Source of the DNA: Rhodospirillales bacterium
GTDB lineage: Bacteria; Pseudomonadota; Alphaproteobacteria; Rhodospirillales; WMHbin7
Direction: 5' to 3'
DNA: 64,000 nucleotides
Assembly: GCA_016215555.1 (NCBI GenBank)
Contig: JACRJC010000072.1
Span: 1 to 64,000, forward strand
Shown: in pieces, positions 10,689 through 51,228 of the stretch
How positions within the stretch are numbered: position 1 is the first letter of the stretch
Layout: every line of letters starts with the position of its first letter
The notes under the pieces: model-generated
Told to the model about the DNA's origin: nothing
The model's input: the letters and a program-made list of their open reading frames with translations, nothing else
Databases searched by the model: none
Position numbers and translations under genes: made by a program

Positions 10689-10728
10689 TGGCCGTGTTTT
10701 GACCAAAATTAGCTGATTTACATTTTTC

Positions 10729-10756
10729 TTGTAAACCGCGCTAAATTTGGTATAAC
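10729..10756 (+). promoter_or_regulatory. Promoter of the ATPase gene, probably leaderless
   Basis: TTGTAA (10729-10734) and TATAAC (10751-10756) are spaced by 16 nt. The start codon ATG at 10763 lies 7 nt after the -10 box, where transcription would begin. No Shine-Dalgarno fits in the 6-nt gap. A small inverted repeat, TTTAC/GTAAA, overlaps the -35 region and could be an operator. Confidence 0.5.
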
Positions 10757-10762
10757 TTACCT

Positions 10763-11953
10763 ATGGACCCGGTCAGAAACCCCTATTCACCAGGTGCCGG
10801 CACGCCGCCGCATGAACTGGCGGGGCGTGGTGAGTTGCGCGAAACAGTTCGGATCGTGTTGGAGCGCGTCCGTGCTGGACGTCCCGCCAAAAGCGTCTTG
10901 ATGGTCGGCCTTCGCGGCGTCGGAAAAACGGTGTTGCTTGATCGAATGCGTGAAGACGCCGAGGCGATGGGCATCCAGACCATCCGAGTGGAAGCCCCCG
11001 AAAACCGTTCACTTCCAGCCATTCTCGCGCCTCAGTTAAGGCTGGCCTTGCTGCGCCTTTCTCACATCGAACAGGCCAAGGACGTTGCCCAGCGCGCATT
11101 GCGCGGCCTTGCAGGCTTTGCCAAGGCTCTGAAGGTAAAATATTCCGACATCGAGGTTGGGTTTGATTTCGAGCCGGAACCGGGGCTGGCCGACAATGGC
11201 GATTTGGAACATGATCTCCAGTCATTATTGGAAGTGGCCGGGGCGGCTGCGAAGAAGGCCGGAACCGCTCTGGCGATCTTCGTAGACGAGCTTCAATATG
11301 TTGAAGAAGAGCAATTGGCTGCCTTGATAACAGCCCTCCACCGGGTCTCGCAGCGAAGTCTGCCAATCGTGCTGGTTGGGGCGGGACTGCCCCAGTTGCC
11401 AGGAAAAATGGGCCGCGCGAAGTCGTATGCCGAGCGTTTGTTCGATTTTCCACGGATCGGGCCTTTGCCGCCGGATGCTGCCAGGCAGGCGATTGCCAAG
11501 CCTGCTGCCGATCAGGGCGTCATTGTGGAGACAGAGGCGCTAGACCGCATTGTTCAAGAAACGCGCGGCTATCCTTATTTTCTACAAGAATGGGGAAAGC
11601 ATGCTTGGGACGTTGCCGAGAACGCCAGCATAACCCTGCATGACGTTGAACGGGCAAATCATTCTGCAATAGCAGCCTTGGACGAGAGCTTCTTTCGCGT
11701 CCGCTTTGATCGGTTAACTCCTTTGGAAAAGAAATATCTGCGCGCCATGGCCGAACTTGGCCCCGGGCCGCACCGATCCGGTGATATTGCCGAACAGCTT
11801 GCCCGAGAGGTCACCTCCCTGGGACCGACCCGGGGGAAGTTGGTCGAGAAAGGCATGGTTTGGAGCCCAAGCCACGGAGACACGGCCTTTACGGTGCCGC
11901 TGTTCGACAAGTTCATGAAGAGAATCATGCCCAGCGACGATTGGAGATGTTAG
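10763..11953 (+). CDS. AAA/STAND-like ATPase, hypothetical
   Basis: This 396-residue protein has Walker A GLRGVGKT (about residues 49-56) and Walker B LAIFVDELQYV (about 171-181). The middle region LPIVLVGAGLPQLPG followed by FDFPRIGPLPPDAAR is typical of Orc1/Cdc6-like and archaeal-type AAA ATPases, and a C-terminal winged-helix-like part is likely. There is no signal peptide. It stands alone after the restriction-modification genes and 92 bp before a nuclease gene on the same strand, so an ATPase plus nuclease defence pair is conceivable. The specific function is not known. Confidence 0.65.
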   Translation: MDPVRNPYSPGAGTPPHELAGRGELRETVRIVLERVRAGRPAKSVLMVGLRGVGKTVLLDRMREDAEAMGIQTIRVEAPENRSLPAILAPQLRLALLRLSHIEQAKDVAQRALRGLAGFAKALKVKYSDIEVGFDFEPEPGLADNGDLEHDLQSLLEVAGAAAKKAGTALAIFVDELQYVEEEQLAALITALHRVSQRSLPIVLVGAGLPQLPGKMGRAKSYAERLFDFPRIGPLPPDAARQAIAKPAADQGVIVETEALDRIVQETRGYPYFLQEWGKHAWDVAENASITLHDVERANHSAIAALDESFFRVRFDRLTPLEKKYLRAMAELGPGPHRSGDIAEQLAREVTSLGPTRGKLVEKGMVWSPSHGDTAFTVPLFDKFMKRIMPSDDWRC

Positions 11954-11975
11954 GAAGATCATGCAATTTCTGTTC

Positions 11976-12199
11976 GCCCTGCACGTTCCCGCAGCGCAGC
12001 CGCCGTTGAAACGGGCGGTCGGCCAGGCATCGCTTTTCTAGCGCCATGAGAAAAAAGACCGAGTGGGACATTCAGCAGGCTGATTGCGCCACTGGGCTTC
12101 GCGATGTCACGCCGCCAGTGCCCTGCTTGAAGTGCGCCAAGCCGACGGTTCATCGCGTTTTGGCCAGCCATACCGCCGAGCGCGATTGCTGGGATGGCG
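11976..12199. repeat. Direct repeat, left copy, overlapping the 5' end of the EEP gene
   Basis: Two blocks (about 11976-12039 and 12111-12199) recur with high identity and in the same order at 13235-13392. The right copy lacks the 12040-12110 segment. The repeated part includes 11-12 codons around the first CxxC of the EEP protein. The two copies flank the EEP gene almost exactly. Confidence 0.8.
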
Positions 12200-13116
12200 A
12201 CCGGTTGGCCGGGTCTACGGCAACGTCATGGACAATTTCGCGCTGTGAAGCTTGCGGCAATATCTCCTATCTGACCCGCCATAATAGTGGCTTTGATGAA
12301 GCGCACTTTGATTACCCATTCGAAACCTGGGAGGGCCATCGACTTTCTTGGCGTTGTGAAATCCAGGGCGAAGAGATTGGCGCGGATTGCCATTCAAACG
12401 ATGCGCTACCGCTCTGGCGCTTGATGGCTTGGAACATCCGCCACGGGGGCGGCAAACGTATCAAGGACATCGTTGCTCGTATCGTTCGTCATCGCCCGGA
12501 CATTATTGTTCTGTCGGAATTTAGAAACGACGGCAATGGATCGGCACTGATAAGCGAACTTTGGAACATTGGCTTTATGTATACGCACACGCTTGAAGCC
12601 CCAGAGAAAGCCAACAGCGTCTTGATCGCTTCTCGGGACTATGTGGACCAGCCGAGGCCTTTGAATGCCGGTCTTGAGAAGCCTTATATGCTGCTGGACG
12701 TCGATGTGTTGGGCATCTCCCTGGTTGGCGTCTATATGCCCAACAACAAGGCCAAGACGCCTTATTGGGAAGCCGTTGTCGCCGCCGCCAAGGAAAGAGC
12801 CGAAAAGCCTGCCTTGTTCATTGGCGATTTCAATACTGGCAAGCATTATCTCGACGAGGCGGGTGCGACGCTTGTTTCCGCTCCCTTTATGGAGCGCATG
12901 GAAGACGTCGGCTTCACCGAGTTATGGCGTACCCGAAATCCCAAGGGCAAGGAATTCACCTGGATCAGCAATGCCGGGAATGGGTTTCGTCTCGATCATG
13001 CCTTTGCTTCGTCGTCCCTGACTGAACGGGTCGCCGACGTCTATTACTCTCATGCCGAGCGTCAAGACGGCGTTTCAGATCATTCCGCCCTGATCATCGA
13101 TTTCAGGAAGTGGTAG
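12046..13116 (+). CDS. Endonuclease/exonuclease/phosphatase (EEP) protein with N-terminal zinc ribbon
   Basis: This 356-residue protein has two parts. Residues 1-115 contain CLKC (27-30) and CEAC (67-70), which suggests a four-cysteine zinc site. Residues 125-356 carry the EEP superfamily motifs: MAWNIRHGG, IIVLSEFR (catalytic Glu), FIGDFNTG (Asp/Asn), FRLDHAF, and VSDHSALI (SDH). EEP enzymes are metal-dependent DNases, RNases or phosphatases. The zinc ribbon may bind nucleic acid; this is inferred. Its 5' end is duplicated downstream. It follows the ATPase gene on the same strand and may act with it. Confidence 0.75.
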   Translation: MRKKTEWDIQQADCATGLRDVTPPVPCLKCAKPTVHRVLASHTAERDCWDGDRLAGSTATSWTISRCEACGNISYLTRHNSGFDEAHFDYPFETWEGHRLSWRCEIQGEEIGADCHSNDALPLWRLMAWNIRHGGGKRIKDIVARIVRHRPDIIVLSEFRNDGNGSALISELWNIGFMYTHTLEAPEKANSVLIASRDYVDQPRPLNAGLEKPYMLLDVDVLGISLVGVYMPNNKAKTPYWEAVVAAAKERAEKPALFIGDFNTGKHYLDEAGATLVSAPFMERMEDVGFTELWRTRNPKGKEFTWISNAGNGFRLDHAFASSSLTERVADVYYSHAERQDGVSDHSALIIDFRKW

Positions 13117-38235: not shown

Positions 38236-39068
38236 GCGGCCCCCTTTTGCCGTTCCTGGCAGGCATCGCTGTCCGAGCAGACGTAAAGGCGCGTCCCCAC
38301 ATCGTCGGTAATCACTTCGTCGAGATAGGTGTCGGCGGCTCCGCACAGGGCGCAAGGCTGGTCCCAACGCTGAATCTCGAAGGGATAATCCTCGAAATCG
38401 AGGCTTTTCACCGATGTATAGGGCGGCACCGCATAGATGCGTTTCTCGCGCCCGGCCCCGAACAACTGAAGCGCCGGCATGCGGTCCATTTTCGGATTGT
38501 CGAATTTGGGGATGGGCGACGGCGCCATCACATAGCGGTGATGGACCAGAACCGGATAATTGTAGCTGGTGGCGATGCAGCCGAAGCGGGCGATGTCTTC
38601 GTACAATTTGACATGCATGACCCCGTAATCGGCCAGGGCGTGCATCTTGCGGGTTTCGGTTTCCCGGGGCTCCATCCAGCGCAGAGGCTCGGGGATCGGC
38701 ACCTGATAGACCAGGATCTGCCCTTCATGCAGAGGATGCTCGGGAATGCGGTGGCGGGTTTGGATGATGGTGGCGTCGATTGTGCGCTCGGTGGTGGCGA
38801 CGCCTGCCGTTTTCGAGAAGAAGCGGCGGATGGAAACGGCGTTGGTCGTATCGTCGGAGCCCTGGTCGATCACCTTCAGAATATCGCCGGGTCCGATGAC
38901 GCTGGCCGTCACTTGAATGCCGCCGGTTCCCCAGCCATAGGGTAGAGGCATTTCGCGGCTGGCGAAGGGCACTTGATAGCCGGGAATGGCCACCGCCTTC
39001 AGCAAAGCGCGGCGGATCATGCGCTTGGTCTGCTCGTCGAGATAGGCGAAGTTGTAGCCCTCAGGCAT
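38232..39068 (-). CDS. phnJ: PhnJ, radical SAM carbon-phosphorus lyase
   Basis: This 278-residue catalytic subunit cleaves the C-P bond of ribose 1-alkylphosphonate 5-phosphate. The cluster ligands are all present: Cys239, Cys242, Cys264 and Cys270 (C-x2-C-x21-C-x5-C), equivalent to 241, 244, 266 and 272 of E. coli. The glycyl-radical residue is Gly30 in AVAIPGYQVPF. ATG 39068 gives the standard MPEGYNFAYLDEQTKR start. It overlaps phnI by 8 nt. Confidence 0.97.
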   Translation of the reverse strand: MPEGYNFAYLDEQTKRMIRRALLKAVAIPGYQVPFASREMPLPYGWGTGGIQVTASVIGPGDILKVIDQGSDDTTNAVSIRRFFSKTAGVATTERTIDATIIQTRHRIPEHPLHEGQILVYQVPIPEPLRWMEPRETETRKMHALADYGVMHVKLYEDIARFGCIATSYNYPVLVHHRYVMAPSPIPKFDNPKMDRMPALQLFGAGREKRIYAVPPYTSVKSLDFEDYPFEIQRWDQPCALCGAADTYLDEVITDDVGTRLYVCSDSDACQERQKGAA

Positions 39069-40173
39069 GACCGACCTCCGTCTTGCCGCGAGCTTCATCT
39101 TTCTCGCGTTCGGCCCGAAGCTCGCGCACCATCACCAGCTCGCCCTGGAAATCGACGTAATGCGGCAATTTCAGGTGCTGCACGAAGCCCATGGCCTCGA
39201 CATTGTCGGAATGCATGAGCACGAATTCCTCGTCCTGCGCGGGGGCGGCGATCTCTTCGCCCAGTTCCTCGGCGCGAAGCGCCCGATCGACCAGGGCCAT
39301 CGACATCGCCTTGCGCTCGGATTCGCCAAAGACCAGGCCGTAGCCCCGCGTGAACATGGGCGGAATGTCCTTCGATCCCTTGAACTGATTGACCATCTCG
39401 CATTCGCTGACGGTCATGGCGCCGATGGTGACGGCAAACCCCAACTCTTCCGGGACGATGGATATCTCGACTTCGCCGATGCGGATTTCGCCGGCGAAAG
39501 GATGGTTGTTGCCGAAGCCGCGCTGGGTGGAATAGCCAAGCGCCAGCAGGAAGCCCTCGTCGCCACGGGCCAGATTCTGCAGACGTAACGCGCGCGAGGC
39601 CGGGAAGTCCAATGGCTCGCGGGTCAAATCCTCGACAGGAAATTGGTCGTCGTCGCCATGTTCGGGTTCGATCAACCCCTCCCGTCCCAGCAGCGAGGAA
39701 ACATGGGGCATGGCGACCCCAGCGTCGGCATGGGCCGGCGCCGCGACCGCTTCTTGCCGGTTGCCGGTTTCGGCCAGCGCGAAATCGAGCAGGCGGTGCG
39801 TGTAGTCGAAGGTCGGTCCCAGCACCTGTCCGCCCGGCAAATCCTTGAAGGTGGCCGAGATGCGCCGGCGCACGGCCATCAAGGCGGTGTCGATGGGTTC
39901 GCAGTCATACAGGCGCGGCAGGGTATTGCGAAAGGCGCGCAGCAGAAAAATGGCCTCGACCAGATCGCCCCTGGCCTGTTTGATGGCCAAGGCCGCCAGA
40001 CGCTTGTCGTAAAGCGATCCTTCCGCCATGACGCGATCAACGGCCAGACCCAACTGTTCGCCGATCTGTTCCAGCGACAGTTCCGGGACGCTTTCATCGC
40101 CCCGTCTGGCCTGGGCCAGCAAACGGTGGGCGGCGTCGATGGCCGCTTCGCCGCCTTTGACCGCGACATACAT
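39061..40173 (-). CDS. phnI: PhnI, nucleosidase/ribosyl-triphosphonate synthase subunit
   Basis: This 370-residue core subunit joins the phosphonate to ribose triphosphate from ATP, working with PhnG, PhnH and PhnL. It matches PhnI along its length, including SLLGREGLIE (about residue 151), LARGDEGFLLALGYSTQRGFG and EGLGFAVTIGAM-like blocks, and LKLPHYVDFQGEL near the end. Its ATG follows the phnH TGA without a gap. Confidence 0.95.
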   Translation of the reverse strand: MYVAVKGGEAAIDAAHRLLAQARRGDESVPELSLEQIGEQLGLAVDRVMAEGSLYDKRLAALAIKQARGDLVEAIFLLRAFRNTLPRLYDCEPIDTALMAVRRRISATFKDLPGGQVLGPTFDYTHRLLDFALAETGNRQEAVAAPAHADAGVAMPHVSSLLGREGLIEPEHGDDDQFPVEDLTREPLDFPASRALRLQNLARGDEGFLLALGYSTQRGFGNNHPFAGEIRIGEVEISIVPEELGFAVTIGAMTVSECEMVNQFKGSKDIPPMFTRGYGLVFGESERKAMSMALVDRALRAEELGEEIAAPAQDEEFVLMHSDNVEAMGFVQHLKLPHYVDFQGELVMVRELRAEREKDEARGKTEVGHA

Positions 40174-40764
40174 TCAAGCCTCCACCACAGTGGTGCGCGG
40201 CAGGGCCGCGACCTGGTTTTGCGTGCAGAAAATCAGATCGAGCCCCAGCGGATAAAGCGGCGCCAGATTGGCTCGGGCCTGCCAGAATTCGGGTCCGATG
40301 CCGTCGATGTCCAATCGGTTCGTGCTCTCGATGCCGGGGCCGCTCAGGGTCAGGCCCTTGCCCTCCTGCAAGCGTTCGACGCCAATCAGCAGAGTCGCCG
40401 AGCGGTCGGGATATTCCGGCGAGCCCAACGAAAAATCGTCCAGCGGCAGCAAACGATCCTGGGCGTGAAACAAGACAAAGCTCGCCATCCGATGGTCGCC
40501 AACCAGCTGAGCGCCGGTGTGAAAGCCGATCCACCCAGCCACCTCGGGGACGGCAATAGTTTCCGACAACCATAAAGGCGTATCGCGGTCAGCCAGAGCC
40601 AGCAGAATGCTGCCCAAGCCGCAACCCAGGACAGGCGGCGCCGGCGGCTGGGCCGTGATGGAAAAGAGGCGGCCGGGATGCGCCATGGCGTTCAGCACGG
40701 CGCGAAAACTGGCGTTGGCGTCGGTGACGGGATCGGCAAAGCCGGCGGCGGGAACGAAGCTCAT
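40174..40764 (-). CDS. phnH: PhnH, C-P lyase core subunit
   Basis: This 196-residue subunit of the GHIJ core complex has the typical PhnH opening FADPVTDANASFRAVLNAMA followed by HPGR, and the internal pattern PEYPDRSATLLIGVERL. ATG 40764 is chosen: GGGGAGA lies 7 nt upstream, and the ATG starts one base after the phnG stop. The longer in-frame start lies inside phnG. Confidence 0.93.
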   Translation of the reverse strand: MSFVPAAGFADPVTDANASFRAVLNAMAHPGRLFSITAQPPAPPVLGCGLGSILLALADRDTPLWLSETIAVPEVAGWIGFHTGAQLVGDHRMASFVLFHAQDRLLPLDDFSLGSPEYPDRSATLLIGVERLQEGKGLTLSGPGIESTNRLDIDGIGPEFWQARANLAPLYPLGLDLIFCTQNQVAALPRTTVVEA

Positions 40765-40765
40765 C

Positions 40766-41263
40766 TCATTCTCCCCTGACCATGGTGAAGAACTCGACAC
40801 GGCTGGCCTGCGCGGTTTCGACGCTTTGGCGCTTGGCGTCGGCCTGCGTTTTTTCTTGCGGCGCAATCAAGTCGCTTTCCAGGCGGGCGCCGTGCGGCGG
40901 CAATTGCATCAGCCCGTCGAAGAGGGCGACATACAGGGCGTGATCCTGATCGCAACCGGCCACATAGCCGTGCCCCGCCACTTCGCCGCCCTGGCCATCG
41001 TCAACGGCCAGGGAACAGCGGCAAAGACTCATCTCGCCGATATTGAAGCGCTGGCCGACGCCGCCGATCCTTCCCCGCACCAAGGCCAAACCGGTCTCGG
41101 GGGCGCGTATCAGGCGGTAATCGGGCTTGGCCTCAAGACGGCCCCAGGCTTCCTTCAGCACTTGTTTGGGCGCCTGGGCCAGAATCGCCAGCCAGCGGGC
41201 GCGGGCCGCGTTCGAGGAGGGGCCGCTGCTCCCGGCCTGAGGTCCGTTCGTGCCGTCTCGCAT
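40766..41263 (-). CDS. phnG: PhnG, C-P lyase core subunit
   Basis: This 165-residue first gene of the C-P lyase operon shows the PhnG blocks ARWLAILAQAPKQVLKEAWG (about residues 22-41), IGEMSLCRCSLAV and GHGYVAGCDQDHALYVALFDGL. ATG 41263 follows AGGTG by about 9 nt; a GTG at 41275 is the alternative. Its upstream region is shared with phnF and carries the candidate operator. Confidence 0.93.
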   Translation of the reverse strand: MRDGTNGPQAGSSGPSSNAARARWLAILAQAPKQVLKEAWGRLEAKPDYRLIRAPETGLALVRGRIGGVGQRFNIGEMSLCRCSLAVDDGQGGEVAGHGYVAGCDQDHALYVALFDGLMQLPPHGARLESDLIAPQEKTQADAKRQSVETAQASRVEFFTMVRGE

Positions 41264-41302
41264 GGGGCGGTACACCTGATTTGAAATGAAAGCCGCTCAA
41301 CT

Positions 41303-41320
41303 TGTCTAGACATCTAGACA
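41303..41320. promoter_or_regulatory. Candidate PhnF operator
   Basis: TGTCTAGACATCTAGACA consists of the palindrome TGTCTAGACA (41303-41312) plus a second TCTAGACA half (41313-41320). It lies in the 130-bp gap between divergent phnG and phnF, the expected place for a GntR-family autoregulator. Confidence 0.65.
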
Positions 41321-41393
41321 TAGCCAGACTATAAATCAGACCGGTTTGTTCCAGCAAGGCGCGGTCGGTGAAGTTTTCGTGACGGAGTTGGGG

Positions 41394-42107
41394 ATGGAAC
41401 AGGAAGGCATCGCCGTCTGGCGGCAAATCGAGCAGACGATCCTGGGCGAGATCGAGGGCAAACACTTGCCGCCAGGTGCTCGCCTGCCCAGCGAGCATGA
41501 GCTGGCCGAGCGTTTCGGCGTCAACCGCCACACGGCCAGGCATGCCTTGCAGGCCCTTTCCGAACGCGGCGTCATCCGCACAGAGAAAGGGCGCGGCAGC
41601 TTCGTCGAATCGCCGATGGTCGATTATCGCATCGCGCCTAGAACCCGCTTTTCAGAAAATATCGCCAGCCATTCGCGCACGCCTTCGGGCGAGTTGGTGC
41701 GCAGCCAGGAATTGCCAGCCGATGCGATGATCGCCGACGCCATGGGCCTTACCCCCGGCGCCCCCCTGATCCTGCTTGAAACCATGGGCATCGCCGACGG
41801 GCAGCGGATCAGCCTGGGCGCCCATTACTTCGCCAAGGCCCGCTTTGCGAAAATCCTCTCCCATTACAAGCGGCTGGGCTCGATCACCAAGGCGCTGGCG
41901 AAAATGGGAGTCGGCGACTATCTGCGTAAGACGACCAGGATTTCGGTTCGCATGCCCGATAAGCGCGAGGCCAGGCTTCTGCGCCAGCCGGCGAACGAGC
42001 CGGTCCTGATCGTCGAAAGCGTCAATGTGGATACGCAAGGTCAACCCATCGAATATGGCGTCGCCTGCATGTCGGGGGCCCGGACCCAACTGGTCATCGA
42101 TTTCTGA
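41394..42107 (+). CDS. phnF: PhnF, GntR/HutC-family regulator of phosphonate genes
   Basis: This 237-residue regulator has an N-terminal winged helix (about residues 1-70: VWRQIEQTILGEIEG, PSEHELAERFGVNRHTARHAL) and a C-terminal UTRA ligand-binding domain with LETMGIADGQRISLGAHYF and RKTTRISVRMPD. ATG 41394 has GGAG 6 nt upstream. It is divergent from phnG and followed by a PhnM paralogue, and likely represses the phn operon through the site at 41303. Confidence 0.92.
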   Translation: MEQEGIAVWRQIEQTILGEIEGKHLPPGARLPSEHELAERFGVNRHTARHALQALSERGVIRTEKGRGSFVESPMVDYRIAPRTRFSENIASHSRTPSGELVRSQELPADAMIADAMGLTPGAPLILLETMGIADGQRISLGAHYFAKARFAKILSHYKRLGSITKALAKMGVGDYLRKTTRISVRMPDKREARLLRQPANEPVLIVESVNVDTQGQPIEYGVACMSGARTQLVIDF

Positions 42108-42118
42108 TTTCACACAAA

Positions 42119-42135
42119 CGTCATCCATTTTGACG
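42119..42135. repeat. Inverted repeat before the second PhnM gene
   Basis: CGTCA-N7-TGACG occupies 42119-42135, 23 bp before the ATG at 42159 and 12 bp after phnF. It could be an operator or a small mRNA hairpin. Confidence 0.4.
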
Positions 42136-42158
42136 ATTGCTTCCGTTAGAAGCCCTCC

Positions 42159-43331
42159 ATGTTCGACACCAAGGCGGCCTCGGCTAGGCAAAATTCATTC
42201 GATCTCGTTGGCGGGCGCGTGCTGCTGCCTGAGGGCAAGATTGCCGAAACCTGCCTGTCCATTGAAAACGGCTGCATCGCCGGTATTGGCGGCGATGCGC
42301 GTCATGACCGCGTCCTGGATGTCAGAAACGCCCTGATCCTGCCCGGCATCATCGATCTGCATGGCGACGCTTTCGAACGCCAACTGATGCCGCGCCCCGG
42401 CGTCGCCTTCGACCCCGGCCTGGCCCTGATCGATACCGACCGCCAGTTGGTGACCAACGGCATTACCACCGCCTATCACGGTCTGACCTGGTCTTGGGAA
42501 CCGGGTCTGCGCGGTACCGAGGCGGCGCACGCTTTTTTGCGGGCCTTGTCCGATGTGAGGCCCCATCTTCTGGCCGACACCAGACTGCATCTGCGTCATG
42601 AGACCTACAATCTGGATGCCGAGCGGCAGATCATGGATTGGCTCAGCGGGCGGCGCGTCGATTTGCTCGCCTTCAACGACCATATGGCCCATATCGCCGA
42701 AAAGCTGGACAAGCCCGACCGTCTGGCCCAGTTCGCCGGCCGCTCGGGCCTCAGCTCCGCCGAATTCCTGGGGCTTTACAACAAGGTCAAGGAACGGGCG
42801 GACGAGGTTGAACAATCGATCATGCGTCTGGCCGACGCGGCGCGGCTCGTGCATGTGCCCATGGCCTCGCATGACGACGAGTCGAAAGTGGACCGGGCCT
42901 GGTTTCACGCGCTGGGCTGTTCGATCAGCGAATTCCCGGTCGATGAATCGACGGCCGAATTCGCCATCGCCAATCAAGATGCGGTGATCCTGGGCGCCCC
43001 CAATGTCTTGCGAGGGCAAAGTCACTGCGGCCGCTTGATGGCCGCCGACATGGCGGCGCGGGGGCTTTGCACCGCCCTGGCCTCCGATTATTACTATCCG
43101 GCTCTTCTGCAAGCGCCGTTCAAACTGGCCCGCGATGGCCTGCTCTCCTTCGCCGACGCCTGGGCCCTGGTGTCTCGCAATCCGGCCAAGGCGGTCGGAC
43201 TTCATGACCGGGGAAGGCTGGAAGCGGGACTGCGCGCCGACATCTTGATCGTCAATGACGCCAATCCCCAACTTGCGCTGTTGCAAGCCGTCGTCTGTGC
43301 GGGCCAGATGACGCAATTATCGCGGTTCTAG
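42159..43331 (+). CDS. Second PhnM-like amidohydrolase
   Basis: This 390-residue enzyme is a paralogue of PhnM. It has IDLHGDAFERQLMPRPGVAF (metal-binding H-x-D, about residue 65), FNDHMAHI, MASHDDESK (about 240), LGAPNVLRGQSHCG and LASDYYYPALLQAPF. Typical PhnM blocks are conserved, but identity to the PhnM at 35613 is visibly low. It sits after phnF, outside the phnGHIJKLM operon, and may be a triphosphate diphosphatase for another ribosyl phosphonate. It converges with the next gene (4-nt overlap). Confidence 0.85.
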   Translation: MFDTKAASARQNSFDLVGGRVLLPEGKIAETCLSIENGCIAGIGGDARHDRVLDVRNALILPGIIDLHGDAFERQLMPRPGVAFDPGLALIDTDRQLVTNGITTAYHGLTWSWEPGLRGTEAAHAFLRALSDVRPHLLADTRLHLRHETYNLDAERQIMDWLSGRRVDLLAFNDHMAHIAEKLDKPDRLAQFAGRSGLSSAEFLGLYNKVKERADEVEQSIMRLADAARLVHVPMASHDDESKVDRAWFHALGCSISEFPVDESTAEFAIANQDAVILGAPNVLRGQSHCGRLMAADMAARGLCTALASDYYYPALLQAPFKLARDGLLSFADAWALVSRNPAKAVGLHDRGRLEAGLRADILIVNDANPQLALLQAVVCAGQMTQLSRF

Positions 43332-44899
43332 CTCTGCCGCAGCGGCTTGACGTCCGGATAGGCTTGGCGAAGGGCGGCGAAGTCGGCATGCTTGGCGACG
43401 TCGCACAATAGCCGGATCAATCCGTCGGCGGAGGGGCCTTGGCGATGGCCCATGGCGACCTTCAGAAAGCTACGGCTGCTGCCGTCTGAGCGCTCATAGC
43501 CCTCAGGAATCACGATCTCGAAGCGGTGATGGCGAAAACCGAAGCTGGAGCCCAGGCAGGCGGTCAGGCCCCGGCGCAAGATTTCCGTGTGGATGACCGC
43601 CTCCAGCAGATCGCGGTTGGCCTGGCGGTCCTCGCGGTCGCGCAGATGGGCGATGACGAAGGGCGATTCCGCCCATTGCCAGCCCGACAGTTTGGACAGG
43701 CTGGGATGGGCGATGCGCGAAAACAGCCCCTCCACCTTGGCCAGGGCAGCGGCCAGCCTTGCATTGTTGGCGAAGATGGGCGCCGCATAGGCGTCCAGGC
43801 GCTGGGGATCGCTGAACCAGGGCAGATCGAGCAGGGTCATCTCGTCCAAGGACAAGGCATTGCCGAAAATTTTGCGGGCGCTGCGTATGTGGCGACGCCA
43901 TTTCTCGACGCCGTGAATGCCGGCTGGGGGGCCCTCGCGGGTGAACAGCCTGGTGATGCCGACATTCGAGAATTCCAGCCCTTCCTGGTCCAGCTTCAAG
44001 CCCGAGCGCAACTCGACGGCCAGCAGCGGGCAGGAGGGGGCCAGCGCCGCCAGCAGGTCGTCCATGCGAAAAACCGGGCCCAGCAGCGATGTGTCCAGAA
44101 TCAGCGCCAGGGGGCGACCCTGCGGACGTTTCAGAATGGCTTGGACCAGGATTTCGGGATCCAGCACCGTCTGGTTCCAGTCATACATCGACGGTTCGAC
44201 CAGCAGAATGTCGGTCTTGCCGTTGGCGACGCGCTCGAATATCTCGTCGGGCTTCTTGAAGCGGCGGCAGAAAACGCCGCGCCGGTCATGCAGGCGCAGC
44301 AGCCGCTCGGTTTCGTAATAGCCGATGAAGGAATCCCAGCGCGGCACCTCGCCCGGCGCCGATAAAAAACGGGGCAGCACCTGCAGCAGGATCGTCAGGG
44401 CGCCCATCGCGCTGCCGAACAAGCAAAACCGCGATTCCCAGCCTGGAACCGGGCGATAGCGGCTCTGGCAGCGATGTTCAAGCCCGTTGGGCGGGACGAC
44501 GCGCTCATAGATATAGTTTTTCAGATCGACGCCGAAGGGCATCGGCACGTCTTCGAGATGCGGCGGCGACTTCATCGGCCGGTCGGCGAAACTGTGGGCC
44601 AGCCGCATCCAGCAGCGGCGAAGCGCCATCGACAGGGTTTCCAGCCGGGCCTCGCCGGCCAGCGATTCCAGATCGGGGGCGGCCAGCAGCGCCTCGGCCT
44701 CGCGGCGCCAGTCGGCGAAGACGGGAACGAAGGCCGGTCTGATCCTGGTAATGGCCTCGGCCAGCGCCATCAGCTCCTGGCACTCGGCCCGGCAGGGTTG
44801 CTCATGGCCGCTCGCCACGGGTGCCGGGCTTTTACGCAGCCGCCGCAACGAATCGGCTTCCCCTTGCACTTCTACCCCTCTGCCAGCCCCATCAACCAT
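43328..44899 (-). CDS. Unrecognised protein, possibly a divergent PLP fold type I enzyme
   Basis: This 523-residue protein of unknown family has no signal peptide or membrane segment. Hints of a PLP-dependent aminotransferase-like fold are FCLFGSAMGALTILLQVL (about residues 165-185), DILLVEPSMYDWNQTV (about 243-258), ALILDTSLLGPVF (about 280-292, Asp for the pyridine nitrogen) and AVELRSGLKLDQEG (about 312-325, Lys candidate). None is decisive. It ends 4 nt inside the PhnM2 gene on the opposite strand. The start is uncertain: ATG 44899 is the first ATG, but a weak Shine-Dalgarno leaves room for a later start. Confidence 0.45.
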   Translation of the reverse strand: MVDGAGRGVEVQGEADSLRRLRKSPAPVASGHEQPCRAECQELMALAEAITRIRPAFVPVFADWRREAEALLAAPDLESLAGEARLETLSMALRRCWMRLAHSFADRPMKSPPHLEDVPMPFGVDLKNYIYERVVPPNGLEHRCQSRYRPVPGWESRFCLFGSAMGALTILLQVLPRFLSAPGEVPRWDSFIGYYETERLLRLHDRRGVFCRRFKKPDEIFERVANGKTDILLVEPSMYDWNQTVLDPEILVQAILKRPQGRPLALILDTSLLGPVFRMDDLLAALAPSCPLLAVELRSGLKLDQEGLEFSNVGITRLFTREGPPAGIHGVEKWRRHIRSARKIFGNALSLDEMTLLDLPWFSDPQRLDAYAAPIFANNARLAAALAKVEGLFSRIAHPSLSKLSGWQWAESPFVIAHLRDREDRQANRDLLEAVIHTEILRRGLTACLGSSFGFRHHRFEIVIPEGYERSDGSSRSFLKVAMGHRQGPSADGLIRLLCDVAKHADFAALRQAYPDVKPLRQS

Positions 44900-45161
44900 C
44901 TGCAAATGCTAGCCTCGCCGTCTGCGCCCGTCCAGGCCGATCCCCGACCGCCCCTTGTCGGCGCGGCCCCTCGACCTGATATGTAAGAGACATCGGCGAT
45001 GTGGAATCCTGTTAACTCTTTGATGCAAAACGCATCGGCGAGTGGGGACAGAAAAGGGGACTAGTCCTTGTTTATGGATGACGGCGGCTAAATAAAATTG
45101 TAATAACCTTGGCAATGATAGGGATTTGACGCTTAGACTGGCCGGGGGGCCGGGTGGGGTT

Positions 45162-47783
45162 ATGAAGATCAGACATGTTCAGGTGGCGCGCGGGATTCAG
45201 TGGGTTGAAATTCAAGCCCGGGATCTGCGCGTGCTCTGCGGCTGTCCCGGCGACGCCATCAAGCATCTGATCAAGCGCGGCCTGATCGTCCCGCAGACGG
45301 TCAAGGGGGTCGATTGCGAAACCGGGCCCAACGCCATTCTGCTGTCCGACCTTGCCATCCAGAATGGCGAATTCGCCAATCTGGCCGAATTCCCGGTCCT
45401 GCAGATGCTCTACAAGCAAGGCCTGCTTTTGCCGGGACATCCCAACAATACCGGCATGAAGCCGATGCTGATCGGCACGCCCGAGCAGGTGTCGTCGCAG
45501 ATGCGCTACATCTACCGCGGCAATTACGGCCTGATTTCCAAGGAAGAGATTATGCAGGCCGGCATGGGGGCGGAACAGGCCGAGGCGATGATGCGCCTGA
45601 AGCTGAAATTCGCCTTTGGGCGTATCCGCCCCACCGAGGATTTCCTGGAATGGCGGATGCTGGACGAGGAAGCGGCCGAGTTGGCGTCCGATGTTTGGAT
45701 CAGGCGCATAGCCCCCAACCGCTTCGAGATTTCCTTCGAGGACGAGACGGTCACGGTCGATCTCAATCTCGCCGCCGACGAGACCTATGAATCGGCCTAT
45801 CCCCTGGGCTTTCGCCGCTATGCGCCGGATTATTTCTCGGTCATCCATTCCGGCGAGGGCGACGGCTGGGATGTCAGCCGTCCCAGCATGTCGAGCATCG
45901 TCACCTATCAGGGGCGGGTGTATCTGATCGATGCCGGTCCCAACCTGACCCATATCCTGGCCGCACTCGGCATCGGCATCGACCAGATCGACGGCATTTT
46001 CCACACCCACGCCCATGACGACCATTTCGCCGGCCTGACCACCTTGATGCGTTCGGGCCATCGCATCCGCTATTTCGCCACGCCTTTGGTGCGCAGCACG
46101 GTGGCCAAGAAGCTGGCGGCGCTTTTGGACACCGAAGAGGACCATATCCTGCACGATTATTTCAAGGTGCATGATCTGGTCTTCGATATGTGGAACGACA
46201 TCGACGGGCTCGAGGTCAAGCCGGTCTTCTCGCCGCATCCGGTCGAGACCAACATCTTCTTGTTCCGCGCCCTGTGGGGCGGCAGCCATCGCTCCTACGC
46301 CCATTTCGCCGACATCGTTTCCCTCGACGTTCTGGCCGGCATGGTCAATGAAAACAAGGACGAGCCCGGCATTGGGCCCGAGGATTTCGAGGCCGTCAAA
46401 CAGGCTTATATGATCCCGGTCGATGTGAAGAAAATCGATATCGGCGGCGGCCTTATCCATGGCGCCGCCAAGGATTTCAAAACCGACCGTTCGGGCCGCA
46501 TCCTGCTGGCGCATCGCGCCGGCGATCTCACGCCCGAGGAAAAGGAGATCGGCTCCAGCGCCGCCTTCGGCACCTCCGACGTTCTGATCGAAGGCCAGTC
46601 CGAGGGATTGCGGCGCTTCGCCTACGCCTTTCTGGAAAAGCATCTCGAGGGCGTGCCCGTCCATCATCTGCGCACGCTTCTCAATCACGAGGTGGTGACG
46701 ATCAATCCCGGCGCCATTCTTTTGAAGGAAGGCGAGGTTCCCGACGAAATCATGCTGGTTCTGTCCGGCGCGGTCGAGAAAATCCGTACCCGCGACAATG
46801 TCTTCGCCACGGTGTCGGCGGGCGCCCTGATCGGATCCTCGACCGCCCTCCTGACCAAGCGGGCTTCGGCGCACACCTACCGCGCCAGTTCCTTCGTCGA
46901 GGCGCTGAAATTCCCCGCCGGTCTCTATGCCAGCGTCGTGCGCCACAATAAGCTGCTCGACAAGATGCTGGCCTCGTTCGATCTGCGCAATTTTCTGGAA
47001 TCGACGGCCATCTTCGGCGAAGGCGTGCCCGCCGTGGTCATGAATCACATGATCGAGGATGCCAGGCCGCATCGTTTCAAGGCCGGCGAGGTCATCGCCA
47101 GCGAGGACATGGATGTGCTCAATCTGATCCGCAAGGGCCGGGTCGAGCGGGCGGCGGGCGGCGAGGTTCTGGAGACGCTGGAGCCGCGCATGTATTTCGG
47201 CGAGGAGGAAGCGGTCTTCAAGCTTCCCGGCCAGTTCCGCCTGTCGGCGCTGGAAGATACCGACGTGCTGCAGATTTCGGGCGACCTGCTGGCCGACGTT
47301 CCGATCGTGCGCTGGAAACTGTTCGAAAGCTGGCAGAAGCGAACCAAGCAAACCGCCTATCGCCTAAGCCACAAGGGCAGCTTCCTCACCTGGCGCGATA
47401 CCTTCTCGGTGCGCATCGCCCACATGGACCTGCATCACAAGCAACTGATCGCCATCGGCAATTCGGTGCTGGAGAATTTGCGCACCGACATCCGCGGTTC
47501 CGCCCTCGTCAAATCCATGGAAGCCATGGCCGATTACGTCGATTACCACTTCCGGGCCGAGGAAGAGATGATGACGCTTTACGCCTATCCCGGCCTTGCC
47601 GTTCACAAGGAAAGGCATGCCGACCTCGAGCGGCAGGTCACGATCATGCAAAAGCAGATTCAGAAGGGCGGCCGCCCCAGCGAGCAGGAGTTCAAACACC
47701 TGTTCGAGGCCTGGATCATCCACCATATCCTGGGCGAGGATAAGGCTTTCGGCGCCTATCTGAATTCCAAGGGCATCTATTGA
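45162..47783 (+). CDS. Multidomain di-iron oxygen sensor: MBL fold, two cNMP-binding domains, hemerythrin
   Basis: This 873-residue cytoplasmic protein has a unique N-terminal part (1-200). A metallo-beta-lactamase domain follows with HTHAHDDHFAG (about 281-291), the di-metal H-x-H-x-D-H motif. Two cyclic-nucleotide-binding-like domains (about 500-600 and 605-715) come next. A C-terminal hemerythrin (about 740-870) has di-iron ligands in HMDLHH, DYHFRAEEEMM, HKERHADL and HHILGEDK. Related fusions with flavodiiron-like domains (ODP) bind oxygen in chemotaxis and stress. The precise output is unknown. ATG 45162 (MKIRHVQ) has GGTGGGG just upstream; a TTG at 45126 is unlikely. It sits beside oxyR and the rubrerythrin operon. 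Confidence 0.82.
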   Translation: MKIRHVQVARGIQWVEIQARDLRVLCGCPGDAIKHLIKRGLIVPQTVKGVDCETGPNAILLSDLAIQNGEFANLAEFPVLQMLYKQGLLLPGHPNNTGMKPMLIGTPEQVSSQMRYIYRGNYGLISKEEIMQAGMGAEQAEAMMRLKLKFAFGRIRPTEDFLEWRMLDEEAAELASDVWIRRIAPNRFEISFEDETVTVDLNLAADETYESAYPLGFRRYAPDYFSVIHSGEGDGWDVSRPSMSSIVTYQGRVYLIDAGPNLTHILAALGIGIDQIDGIFHTHAHDDHFAGLTTLMRSGHRIRYFATPLVRSTVAKKLAALLDTEEDHILHDYFKVHDLVFDMWNDIDGLEVKPVFSPHPVETNIFLFRALWGGSHRSYAHFADIVSLDVLAGMVNENKDEPGIGPEDFEAVKQAYMIPVDVKKIDIGGGLIHGAAKDFKTDRSGRILLAHRAGDLTPEEKEIGSSAAFGTSDVLIEGQSEGLRRFAYAFLEKHLEGVPVHHLRTLLNHEVVTINPGAILLKEGEVPDEIMLVLSGAVEKIRTRDNVFATVSAGALIGSSTALLTKRASAHTYRASSFVEALKFPAGLYASVVRHNKLLDKMLASFDLRNFLESTAIFGEGVPAVVMNHMIEDARPHRFKAGEVIASEDMDVLNLIRKGRVERAAGGEVLETLEPRMYFGEEEAVFKLPGQFRLSALEDTDVLQISGDLLADVPIVRWKLFESWQKRTKQTAYRLSHKGSFLTWRDTFSVRIAHMDLHHKQLIAIGNSVLENLRTDIRGSALVKSMEAMADYVDYHFRAEEEMMTLYAYPGLAVHKERHADLERQVTIMQKQIQKGGRPSEQEFKHLFEAWIIHHILGEDKAFGAYLNSKGIY

Positions 47784-48685
47784 GACTTTAGAATCTCGCC
47801 CAGCGCCTTGCCCAGCAGCTTGAATTCGGGCCTGCGCCCGGAAGTGCGCCGCCAGGCCAGGCCGATCTCGCGCGGCTCGGCCGAGGCGCTCAAAGGTCTG
47901 GTGACCAGGGAACTGGCCGCGATCATTTGCGAGCCGGCGGCCAGGTCGGGAATCAGGGTCAGGCCCAGGCCGCTGGCCACCATCTCGATCAGCGTATGCA
48001 GGCTGGTGCCCTGAAAGCGGTTGGTGCGCTGGCGCCCCGCCGCTTTGCAGGCCGACAGCGCATGGTCGCGCAGACAATGGCCGTCTTCCAGCAGCAGCAA
48101 TTCATCGACGGGAATGTCCTCGGGCGCAATCGGCTTCTTCGAGGTACCCAAGGGATGTCCGGCGGGGCAGACCAGCCAGAAAGGATCCTTGGCGATCATC
48201 AGGGTTTCGGCGCCCGGCGTGTCCATGGGGAAGGCCAGGATCAGAACGTCCAACTCGCCGGCCGTCAACTGGTCCAACAGATGCGCCGTCTGGTCCTCGC
48301 GCAAGAACAGCTTCAATTTGGGAAAGCGGTCGCGCAGGGAGGGCAGCACCTTGGGCAGCAAATAAGGTCCGATGGTGGGAATGACGCCCAATCGCAATTC
48401 GCTGCATAAGGGTTCGGCCCCGGCCCGGGCCGCCTGAACCAGCCCTTCCGCCTCGTCCAACGTGCGCCTGGCCCTCTGCGCAATCTCCAGCCCGATGGGG
48501 GTGGTGACGACCCGGCGCTTGGTGCGTTCCAGCAGCCGCACGCCCAGCATTTCCTCCAATTCCTGGATCCCGGCCGACAAGGTGGATTGGGTGACATGGC
48601 AGGCTTCGGCGGCGCGGCCGAAGTGGCGGATTTCCATCAGTTCGACCAGATAGCGAAGCTGGCGCAGGGTGGGGAGGTGCATCAT
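47777..48685 (-). CDS. oxyR: OxyR, peroxide-sensing LysR regulator
   Basis: This 302-residue LysR regulator has a helix-turn-helix at about residues 6-65. The redox pair Cys204 and Cys213 lies in DGHCLRDHALSAC, the same 9-residue spacing as Cys199 and Cys208 of E. coli OxyR. Peroxide would form the disulphide and activate it. GGAG lies 6 nt before the ATG. It is divergent from the rubrerythrin operon (117-bp gap), which is its likely target, and converges with the sensor gene (7-nt overlap). Confidence 0.93.
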   Translation of the reverse strand: MMHLPTLRQLRYLVELMEIRHFGRAAEACHVTQSTLSAGIQELEEMLGVRLLERTKRRVVTTPIGLEIAQRARRTLDEAEGLVQAARAGAEPLCSELRLGVIPTIGPYLLPKVLPSLRDRFPKLKLFLREDQTAHLLDQLTAGELDVLILAFPMDTPGAETLMIAKDPFWLVCPAGHPLGTSKKPIAPEDIPVDELLLLEDGHCLRDHALSACKAAGRQRTNRFQGTSLHTLIEMVASGLGLTLIPDLAAGSQMIAASSLVTRPLSASAEPREIGLAWRRTSGRRPEFKLLGKALGEILKSQ

Positions 48686-48695
48686 CGAATTCTCC

Positions 48696-48732
48696 GATTA
48701 CTCAATCTATAAAAACTCATTAGAACGATTTT
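48696..48732. promoter_or_regulatory. Candidate OxyR-binding region
   Basis: Quarter-sites GATT (48696), CTAT (48707), CATT (48718) and TTTT (48729) recur every 11 bp, in the layout ATAG-N7-CTAT-N7-ATAG-N7-CTAT expected for OxyR, but with mismatches. It lies in the oxyR/rubrerythrin divergent gap. Confidence 0.4.
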
Positions 48733-48802
48733 AGTCAAGAGCGTATTTTGATTTCAGGCCGGACACCGGTCCGGCCAACAGATCCCAACGATGGAGAGGA
48801 AC

Positions 48803-49222
48803 ATGGCACAGCTCAAAGGCTCCAAGACGGAAGCGAATTTGAAGGCCGCCTTCGCGGGCGAGTCGCAGGCCAACCGCCGCTATCTCTATTTCGCCCAGAA
48901 GGCCGATGTCGAGGGCTATAACGATGCCGCCGCTGTCTTCCGCTCGACCGCCGAGGGCGAGACCGGCCACGCCCACGGCCATCTCGAATTCCTGGAAGCG
49001 GTGGGCGATCCGGCGACCGGGCTTCCCATCGGGCCGACCTCGGCCAATCTGAAGGCCTCGATTGCCGGCGAAACCCACGAATATACCGACATGTATCCGG
49101 GCATGGCCAAGCAGGCCCGCGAGGAAGGGTTCGACGAAATCGCCGATTGGTTCGAAACCCTGGCCAAGGCCGAGAAATCGCATGCCGGGCGCTTCCAGCG
49201 CTCGCTGGGCGAACTGGGCTGA
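48803..49222 (+). CDS. Rubrerythrin lacking the rubredoxin domain
   Basis: This 139-residue four-helix di-iron peroxidase has [20 protein letters not shown] (Glu20), [15 protein letters not shown] (E-x2-H), [16 protein letters not shown] and [11 protein letters not shown] (E-x2-H). The C-terminal rubredoxin domain of long rubrerythrins is missing, so the electron donor must be separate; the Fe-S protein in the next gene is a candidate. It reduces hydrogen peroxide to water. ATG 48803 follows GAGAGG by 3 nt. Confidence 0.93.
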
Positions 49223-49237
49223 AAGAAGACTTGAAGC

Positions 49238-49268
49238 GGGCGGGAGGCGACGCTTCCCGCCCCTTTCC
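49238..49268 (+). terminator. Attenuator-like hairpin after rubrerythrin
   Basis: GGGCGGGA (49238-49245) pairs with TCCCGCCC (49255-49262) and is followed by TTTCCTT. It lies between the rubrerythrin gene and the Fe-S oxidoreductase gene. It could reduce read-through so that rubrerythrin is made in excess. Confidence 0.55.
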
Positions 49269-49286
49269 TTGGAGAGGGAGAAGAAA

Positions 49287-50627
49287 ATGCCCGAAGGCAG
49301 CCTGCAGCGACCGTTCCGCAAGCCGATAGCCTGGCAGGACGCGGACTTCACCGATCCGGAAAAGTTGGACAAGGAGCTTCGGCGCCAGTTCGACGTCTGC
49401 CACGGCTGCCGGCGTTGCTTCAATCTGTGCGACAGCTTCCCGCGCCTGTTCGACCTTATCGACGCCGCCAAAACCGGCGAGTTGGACAGCGTGGACAGCA
49501 GGGATTTCAAGCCGGTCGTCGATGCCTGCACGCTGTGCGACATGTGTTTCATGACCAAATGCCCCTATGTGCCGCCGCACGATTTCGACATCGACATTCC
49601 GCATCTGATGCTGCGCTACCGCGTCGCCCAGGCCAAGGAGGGCAAGGTCGGTTTCACGCATCGCCAGCTCACCGAGACCGACCGCAACGGCAAACTGAAT
49701 TGCGGCCCCCTGTCGGGCGTCGTGAACTGGGCCTCGTCTTGCGGCAATCACCTGACGCGGCCGGTCATGCAGGCGGCGCTGGGCGTTGACGCCAAGGCCG
49801 AACTGCCGAGATTCTCGAAAAAAACGCTGGTCAGAATGGCGGCGGACGAGGTCATCGAGATCAACCGCGAAGCCCCGGCCTTCGGGCGCAAGGCGGTGAT
49901 CTACGCCACCTGTTTTGCCAATTACAACCAACCCGAGATCGGCCTGGCGGCCAGGAAGGTGCTGGCCCGCAACGGCGTCGAGACCAAGATCGTCTATCCC
50001 GAATGCTGCGGCATGCCGCAACTTGAAACCGGGCAGATCGAGCGCGTGGCCGGGAAAGCCAAGCGCGTCGCCGCCGGGATGGGCAACTATATCGACGACG
50101 GCTGGGACATCGTGGCCCTGGTGCCGTCCTGCGCCCTGATGCTGAAATTCGAATGGCCTCTGATCGTGCCCAACGACCCCGGCGTCGATAAACTGGCGGC
50201 GGCGACGTTCGACATTCCGCAATATGTGATGGACATCGCCAAGCGCCAGGGCCTGGCGCCAGGACTGAAGCCGGTTCAGGGCGGCGTGACGGTCCATATC
50301 GCCTGCCATGCCAGGGCTCAGAATATGGGCCGCAAGGCCGAGGAGATGCTGAAGCTGATCCCAGAAACCGAGGTCGCGGTCATCGAGCGCTGCTCGGGCC
50401 ATGGCGGGGCCTGGGGCATCATGAAGGAGAATTTCGAGGTCGCCTTGAAAATCGGGAAACCGGTGGCCAAGCAGGCCGCCGAGAAGAAGCACGGCATCGT
50501 GGTGTCGGAATGTCCCCTCGCCAGATCGCATATCGTTCAGGGCGTCGGCGTCGCCGGCGGCGATGTCGCGGACACTGGGGAATTCACCCACCCCATCGAA
50601 ATTCTGGCCCACGCCTACGGTCTTTAA
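49287..50627 (+). CDS. Fe-S oxidoreductase, GlpC/HdrD-like, rubrerythrin-linked
   Basis: This 446-residue protein has an N-terminal dicluster ferredoxin: [15 protein letters not shown] (about residues 38-52) and [17 protein letters not shown] (about 77-93), two 4Fe-4S sites. Cysteine-rich CCG domains follow ([12 protein letters not shown] near 237 and [10 protein letters not shown] near 371). It looks like an electron carrier, and its place after rubrerythrin suggests that it donates electrons to it. AGGGAG precedes the ATG by 6 nt. It is followed 13 nt later by DUF3501. Confidence 0.85.
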
Positions 50628-50640
50628 GGAGGAGACGACG

Positions 50641-51228
50641 ATGATGCAAAAGAAAATCACCGAGGCCGACATCCTGCCCATGGAAAGCTATGGCAGCACG
50701 CGCAAGGAAAAGCGCGCCCAGATGGTGGCGCTGAAGAAGAATCGCCGCATGAGCGTCGGGCCCAACGCCACCCTCTATTTCGAGAATTTCGACACCATGC
50801 TTTATCAGGTTCACGAAATGCTGTGGACCGAGAAGGGCGGGGCCGAACAGTTGAAGGACGAGTTGGAGGCCTATAATCCCCTGGTGCCGAACGGCAGCGA
50901 GCTGGTCGCCACCTTCATGCTGGAATATGAAGACCCCGAGCGGCGCGCCGTGGCTTTGGCGGCCCTGGGCGGCATCGAGGAAACCATCGCTCTTGAAGTC
51001 GGCGGCCATTTCCTCCTCGCCGGTTGGGAGCAGGAGGTCGAACGGACGACCGAAGAAGGCAAAACCTCGTCAATTCACTTCCTGCATTTCGCTCTGACGC
51101 CGGAGGCCAGGCAAGCCTTCAAGCAGCCGGGTGCCCGGGCCGTCATCGCCATCGGGCATCCCAATTACGCGCATATGGCGGTGATTCCAGAAAACGTTCG
51201 GGCGGAAATCGCCAAGGATTTGGACTGA
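50641..51228 (+). CDS. DUF3501 protein of the rubrerythrin operon
   Basis: This 195-residue protein is of the family usually found directly after rubrerythrin and the GlpC-like Fe-S protein. Blocks visible are RRMSVGPNATLYFENFDTML, EMLWTEKGG, LVATFMLEYEDPERR and IGHPNYAHMAVIP. There is no signal peptide or membrane segment. The function is unknown, but constant co-occurrence suggests a role in peroxide defence. AAGGAGG lies 8 nt before the ATG. Confidence 0.85.
   Translation: MMQKKITEADILPMESYGSTRKEKRAQMVALKKNRRMSVGPNATLYFENFDTMLYQVHEMLWTEKGGAEQLKDELEAYNPLVPNGSELVATFMLEYEDPERRAVALAALGGIEETIALEVGGHFLLAGWEQEVERTTEEGKTSSIHFLHFALTPEARQAFKQPGARAVIAIGHPNYAHMAVIPENVRAEIAKDLD

Follow-up and report, generated by a model that had tools for sequence, protein, structure and literature searches.

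In a 64,000-nucleotide stretch of Rhodospirillales DNA (the window), a single gene encodes an 873-aa protein in which a metallo-beta-lactamase (MBL) domain, two cyclic-nucleotide-binding (CNB) folds, and a hemerythrin (Hr) follow a conserved N-terminal region. We postulate, with moderate confidence, that this protein is an oxygen- or redox-controlled MBL-type phosphodiesterase for a cyclic nucleotide or a related phosphoester, with the CNB pair acting as a relay. In this proposal, we infer the activity, the substrate, the direction of oxygen control, and the CNB ligand.

The gene (45162..47783, plus strand) is a single ORF with an ATG start and without an internal stop. The ORF, family scans, and full-length homologs identify it as a complete gene with the order N-region, MBL, CNB1, CNB2, and hemerythrin. 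The fusion had been predicted from the sequence alone, and the ORF together with Pfam and NCBIfam scans bears it out. The N-terminal region comprises residues 1 to 200 (45162..45761, plus strand, as are all features of the gene) and is supported by alignments A1 and A2 and by columns conserved at the 95% level. The MBL-fold domain, which is class II phosphodiesterase-like, spans residues 205 to 457 (45774..46532) according to Pfam and Foldseek. CNB1 (about residues 500 to 600; 46659..46961) and CNB2 (about residues 614 to 712; 47001..47297) were placed by Pfam and by alignment to PKG, and the bacteriohemerythrin domain covers residues 741 to 868 (47382..47765).

In Pfam scans of the 873-aa protein, Lactamase_B (E = 1.4e-10, from about residue 241) and Hemerythrin (E = 4.3e-10) scored above their curated cut-offs, and cNMP_binding matched two stretches (E = 2.9e-16; 59.6 bits versus a cut-off of 27.5). 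The last 128 residues scored 102.4 bits against the NCBIfam bacteriohemerythrin family NF033749 (cut-off, 84) and 96.5 bits against TIGR02481 (cut-off, 51.75). Sequence matches in the PDB were to Apyc1 (profile E = 8e-7) and a PhnP-family enzyme for the MBL part, to PKG and PKA-R for the CNB pair (profile E = 9e-32 for the tandem CNBs of PKG), and to bacteriohemerythrins (4xpx) and DcrH for the C-terminal end. Residues 1 to 200 had no match in Pfam and none by sequence in the PDB. An AlphaFold2 model of the whole chain, built with 109 relatives, reached a pLDDT of 93.1 and a pTM of 0.92; a second predicted model, of residues 1 to 457 alone (pLDDT, 91.6), was used for Foldseek searches.

The metal site of the MBL domain is complete. 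The residues H283, H285, D287, and H288 of the HxHxDH motif (HAHDDH, residues 283 to 288; 46008..46025), along with H359 (46236..46238), D384 (46311..46313), and H433 (46458..46460), are identical in 136/136 aligned sequences, so that every ligand of the di-metal center suspected in the original prediction is present. H359, which aligns with a His of Apyc1, is a probable metal ligand, and D384 is the probable bridging ligand. Judging from the alignments, the last ligand could be either H433 or H451 (46512-46514), the latter of which does not vary in alignments A1 and A2 and hardly varies in A3; whichever of the two is not the ligand may have a catalytic role similar to that in RNase Z.

Foldseek searches with the full model placed the MBL part with RNase Z and PhnP and the CNB pair with PKA-R and PKG. 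With residues 1 to 457, the best match was Apyc1 (7u2r/7u2s; E = 2.6e-10; TM score, 0.63 by target length), followed by PhnP-family diphosphatases, RNase Z, ELAC1, a Brucella MBL protein with bound GMP/AMP, and YhfI. Of these, Apyc1 and YhfI belong to the class II phosphodiesterases and use an HxHxDH two-zinc site to cleave cyclic mononucleotides (PMC9117128). Given that the nearest folds are those of Apyc1, PhnP, YhfI, and RNase Z, the MBL part appears to be of the phosphodiesterase type. It shares with these enzymes the HxHxDH two-metal site and its best fold match. They are mostly single-domain proteins, however, whereas the 873-aa protein adds the N-region and regulatory domains and scores under the cut-off of Pfam Anti-Pycsar_Apyc1 (24.3 bits versus 50).

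By profile and predicted structure, the CNB folds are PKG/PKA-R-like. With the register of the phosphate-binding cassette set by profile alignment to PKG, neither CNB proved to carry the PR[ST]A motif in any of the 136 sequences; the Arg position is occupied by Ser, Ala, or Val in CNB1 and mostly by Ser, Cys, or Gly in CNB2, and CNB2 retains the cassette Glu in 131/136. In the 873-aa protein itself, CNB1 has neither the Glu nor the Arg, and CNB2 has the Glu (E681), with Gly replacing the Arg. Because the cassette Arg motif is missing from both domains, canonical cNMP binding is not supported, which weakens the earlier claim that the protein binds cyclic nucleotides. With the canonical phosphate site lost, the pair would now serve mainly as an allosteric transducer or bind another ligand.

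There is precedent in kinetoplastid PKA, in which CNBs without the cassette Arg can bind other ligands, in that case nucleosides (PMC10959531). The kinetoplastid regulatory subunits share with our protein a tandem CNB without the cassette Arg, and CNB2 here has a Glu (E683) at the position of PKA A202; unlike in those subunits, CNB1 has no matching Glu, and E683 occurs in only 10/136 relatives. We considered a kinetoplastid-type nucleoside cassette and rejected it as a family trait, since the Glu is found only in CNB2 of the subgroup to which the window protein belongs; it is a weak lead.

All seven hemerythrin ligands (HHEHHHD) are present in the 873-aa protein (H759, H796, E800, H815, H819, H855, and D860), in agreement with the second di-metal center that had been proposed, and an oxygen or redox input through this domain is plausible. 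The ligand set is complete in 96 of the 108 Hr-bearing relatives, and 12/108 are without one or more. We observed one altered iron ligand in the Hr of L067, L068, L083, L077, L044, L084, L089, and L103; the last His is changed to Asp or Glu in four cases and H815 to Gln in four, and such domains possibly have changed metal or redox properties. Known bacterial sensors with hemerythrin domains include DcrH, Bhr-DGC, and Bhr-HD-GYP, the last being the only known Hr-containing phosphodiesterase sensor according to a 2022 review (PMC9388753). These proteins and ours have in common a terminal Hr, the ligand pattern H-HxxxE-HxxxH-HxxxxD, and a fused signaling output, but their outputs are MCP, GGDEF, and HD-GYP domains, whereas here the output is the MBL-CNB core. 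The window's own genome has 16 hemerythrin places above the Pfam cut-off, and it contains other long hemerythrin ORFs of 872, 868, and 936 aa on contigs C65, C7, and C52.

Relatives in three genomes of the same genus keep the full length at 76 to 80% identity, which rules out a chance or chimeric ORF, and two of the three carry a second copy at 47 to 48% identity. A pattern scan of GTDB genomes yielded at least 540 confirmed stretches. The best 80 of these came from Alpha-, Beta-, and Gammaproteobacteria, Magnetococcia, Desulfobacteria, Nitrospirota, Nitrospinota, anammox and other Planctomycetota, Campylobacterota, and a few other groups. The core was present in 56 of 398 sampled Pseudomonadota genomes, many of them with two to four copies. 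A plasmid protein search with the 873-aa protein returned matches to the Hr part only.

The 200-residue N-terminus had been described as unique; it is in fact among the best conserved parts of the family, with invariant or near-invariant W14, C26, P29, K34, EFPVLQ (residues 76 to 81), and RGNYGL (residues 119 to 124). In the Foldseek search, the alignment with human ELAC2 extended further along residues 1 to 457, albeit weakly (TM score, 0.54 by query length). We considered whether the N-terminus is a degenerate second MBL like that of ELAC2 and discarded the idea, as a profile comparison of the N-region with the MBL part gave no similarity.

In relatives, the same core is joined to a range of inputs. 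A clade of eight has a signal peptide (by reading), SBP_bac_3, a transmembrane helix, and a coiled "signaling helix" ahead of the core; others have a response-regulator receiver and a coiled helix, and some consist of the core alone. The fused inputs were verified by Pfam in five representatives, and these long-ORF relatives were chosen for length, so their frequencies do not represent shares of the family. Locus L110 (241-3363, minus strand) encodes a receiver-core-hemerythrin fusion, which combines phosphorylation and oxygen inputs on one protein. Two further candidates for large N-terminal fusions, L023 (1,166 aa) and L037 (1,208 aa), were left out of the fusion count; by eye, their extra sequence resembles no domain and has the appearance of a non-coding frame that happens to be open. 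On a FastTree phylogeny of 136 cores, the presence of Hr changes at least 9 times, 7 of them with strong support, a count that may be slightly inflated by one or two truncated contigs scored as having no Hr.

The solute-binding and receiver fusions place the core where GGDEF or kinase outputs would stand, which suggests that Hr is one of several exchangeable inputs to a core that acts as the output. The original prediction had called the output unknown. The question is now narrowed: the N-region, MBL, and CNB core takes the output position in sensor-fused paralogs, and the MBL part groups structurally with phosphodiesterases. The missing output is most likely the MBL enzyme itself.

Class III adenylate/guanylate cyclase genes were found in all 56 core-bearing Pseudomonadota genomes and in 196 of the 342 core-less ones (Fisher P = 1e-12), an association confounded by phylogeny and genome size; its value is that the proposal passed a test in which failure was possible. 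Four class III cyclases are encoded in the window's own genome. A cyclase gene lies near the core gene in only 5/152 loci, among them L055 (4 bp downstream, same strand), L084 (50 bp away), and L032 (1.5 kb away). The L055 cyclase (10617-12410, plus strand), from a member of the Magnetococcales, is fused to a 2Fe-2S ferredoxin domain, and together with the core-Hr gene it is a possible redox-controlled make-and-break pair.

Comparison of the loci revealed no constant neighbor gene of the core. The oxyR and rubrerythrin neighborhood noted earlier is present in the window (47777-51228), where an oxyR-like LysR gene is convergent with the core gene and is followed on the plus strand by genes for rubrerythrin, a GlpC-like Fe-S/CCG protein, and DUF3501. 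It recurs within the genus (L028 keeps oxyR and the rubrerythrin-FeS-DUF3501 genes, and L081 has a rubrerythrin gene about 1 kb away) but is absent from the other loci examined. On the opposite side, a 525-aa ORF with no Pfam or NCBIfam match is divergent from the core gene (43328-44905, minus strand). Beyond it, at 39061-43331, PhnG/H/I-like ORFs (minus strand) and a GntR-family regulator with a PhnM-like amidohydrolase (plus strand), all assigned by reading, together resemble a C-P lyase (phn) cluster.

Counting against our proposal is the catalytic diversity of the MBL superfamily, in which RNase Z-like or PhnP-like phosphoesters may be the substrates. The rarity of a cyclase gene near the core gene, the lack of a constant neighbor, and the incomplete ligand sets of some Hr domains also speak against it. 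An alternative hypothesis, unlikely in our estimation yet deserving serious attention, is that the MBL part, although a hydrolase of the phosphodiesterase type, acts on another substrate, such as RNA 3' ends, cyclic ribose phosphates, cyclic dinucleotides, or a nucleotide alarmone; the protein would then be an RNase or another signal hydrolase under oxygen control. The scores of RNase Z and PhnP-family structures nearly equal that of Apyc1, and the weak whole-length likeness of residues 1 to 457 to the two-MBL human ELAC2 points the same way, but the sequence of the N-region does not detectably resemble that of the MBL part, and the signaling inputs (solute-binding, receiver, and Hr) and the universal class III cyclases fit a second-messenger substrate better. 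It is far less probable that the MBL domain, in the manner of ODP and flavodiiron proteins, senses oxygen itself through a di-iron site, so that a double oxygen sensor acts via protein contacts. Two metal sites on one chain and the many Hr-bearing hosts from redox gradients would suit such a sensor. HxExD is the metal motif of flavodiiron/ODP-type proteins, however, whereas HxHxDH is a hydrolase pattern; HxExD is absent, all 136 sequences have HxHxDH, and the nearest folds are phosphodiesterases.

A different control scheme is suggested by Dictyostelium GbpA/GbpB, which are MBL-type cGMP/cAMP phosphodiesterases of class IIb, stimulated by cyclic nucleotides and with the order MBL-CNB-CNB (PMC11988041). 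Compared by domain order, they resemble the 873-aa protein in being intracellular and in having an MBL catalytic domain followed by two CNBs. Stimulation of this type, with the CNBs binding cNMP non-canonically and feeding back on the MBL domain and with Hr as a second input, would agree with the identical order, the strong profile match to the tandem CNBs of PKG, and the widely retained Glu of CNB2. The 873-aa protein differs, though, in being bacterial, in its extra C-terminal hemerythrin (replaced by other inputs in relatives), and in its CNBs without a canonical phosphate cassette. The loss of that cassette from both CNBs, compounded here by the missing Glu of CNB1, means that stimulation as in GbpA/GbpB is not supported, and we consider it improbable. 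As for a chance fusion with no joint function, or an assembly artifact, nothing speaks for it except the unusual domain mix; it is already refuted by conservation of the full-length architecture in every group named above for the best 80 stretches (anammox members in the case of the Planctomycetota), which leaves it a negligible chance.

Under the oxygen- or redox-controlled phosphodiesterase that we favor, the protein would be a cytoplasmic signal-transduction enzyme. The di-iron site of the C-terminal hemerythrin would sense oxygen or redox state, and the signal would pass through the tandem CNB-fold linker to a catalytic unit made of the N-region and the MBL domain. This unit would be a two-metal class II (Apyc1/YhfI/RNase Z) phosphodiesterase, the substrate of which is most likely a 3',5'-cyclic mononucleotide. 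Parts of this arrangement are already known, namely, the MBL-CNB-CNB order of GbpA/GbpB and the fusion of Hr to chemoreceptors, diguanylate cyclases, and an HD-GYP enzyme. Our literature search found no report of MBL, CNB, and hemerythrin combined, although the combination may have been catalogued earlier in the supplement to a survey of 56 hemerythrin architectures (PMC4919030).

The closest architectural parallel is a eukaryotic pair, the GbpA/GbpB proteins of Dictyostelium. We tentatively suggest that the N-region, MBL, and CNB-CNB core is an uncharacterized general output module comparable to GGDEF, EAL, and HD-GYP, that is, a cyclic-nucleotide-degrading enzyme with exchangeable sensors (hemerythrin for oxygen, periplasmic solute binding, and phosphoryl transfer), the CNBs of which have turned from ligand sensors into transducers. 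Many of the hosts belong to lineages of redox gradients, including magnetotactic bacteria, iron oxidizers, sulfate reducers, and anammox bacteria. The breakdown of cAMP and cGMP in bacteria is poorly mapped compared with that of c-di-GMP, and little is known of oxygen-regulated cNMP breakdown. Present in hundreds of genomes, with several copies in each, invariant metal sites, and exchangeable sensors, this family is a candidate for the missing degradation arm.
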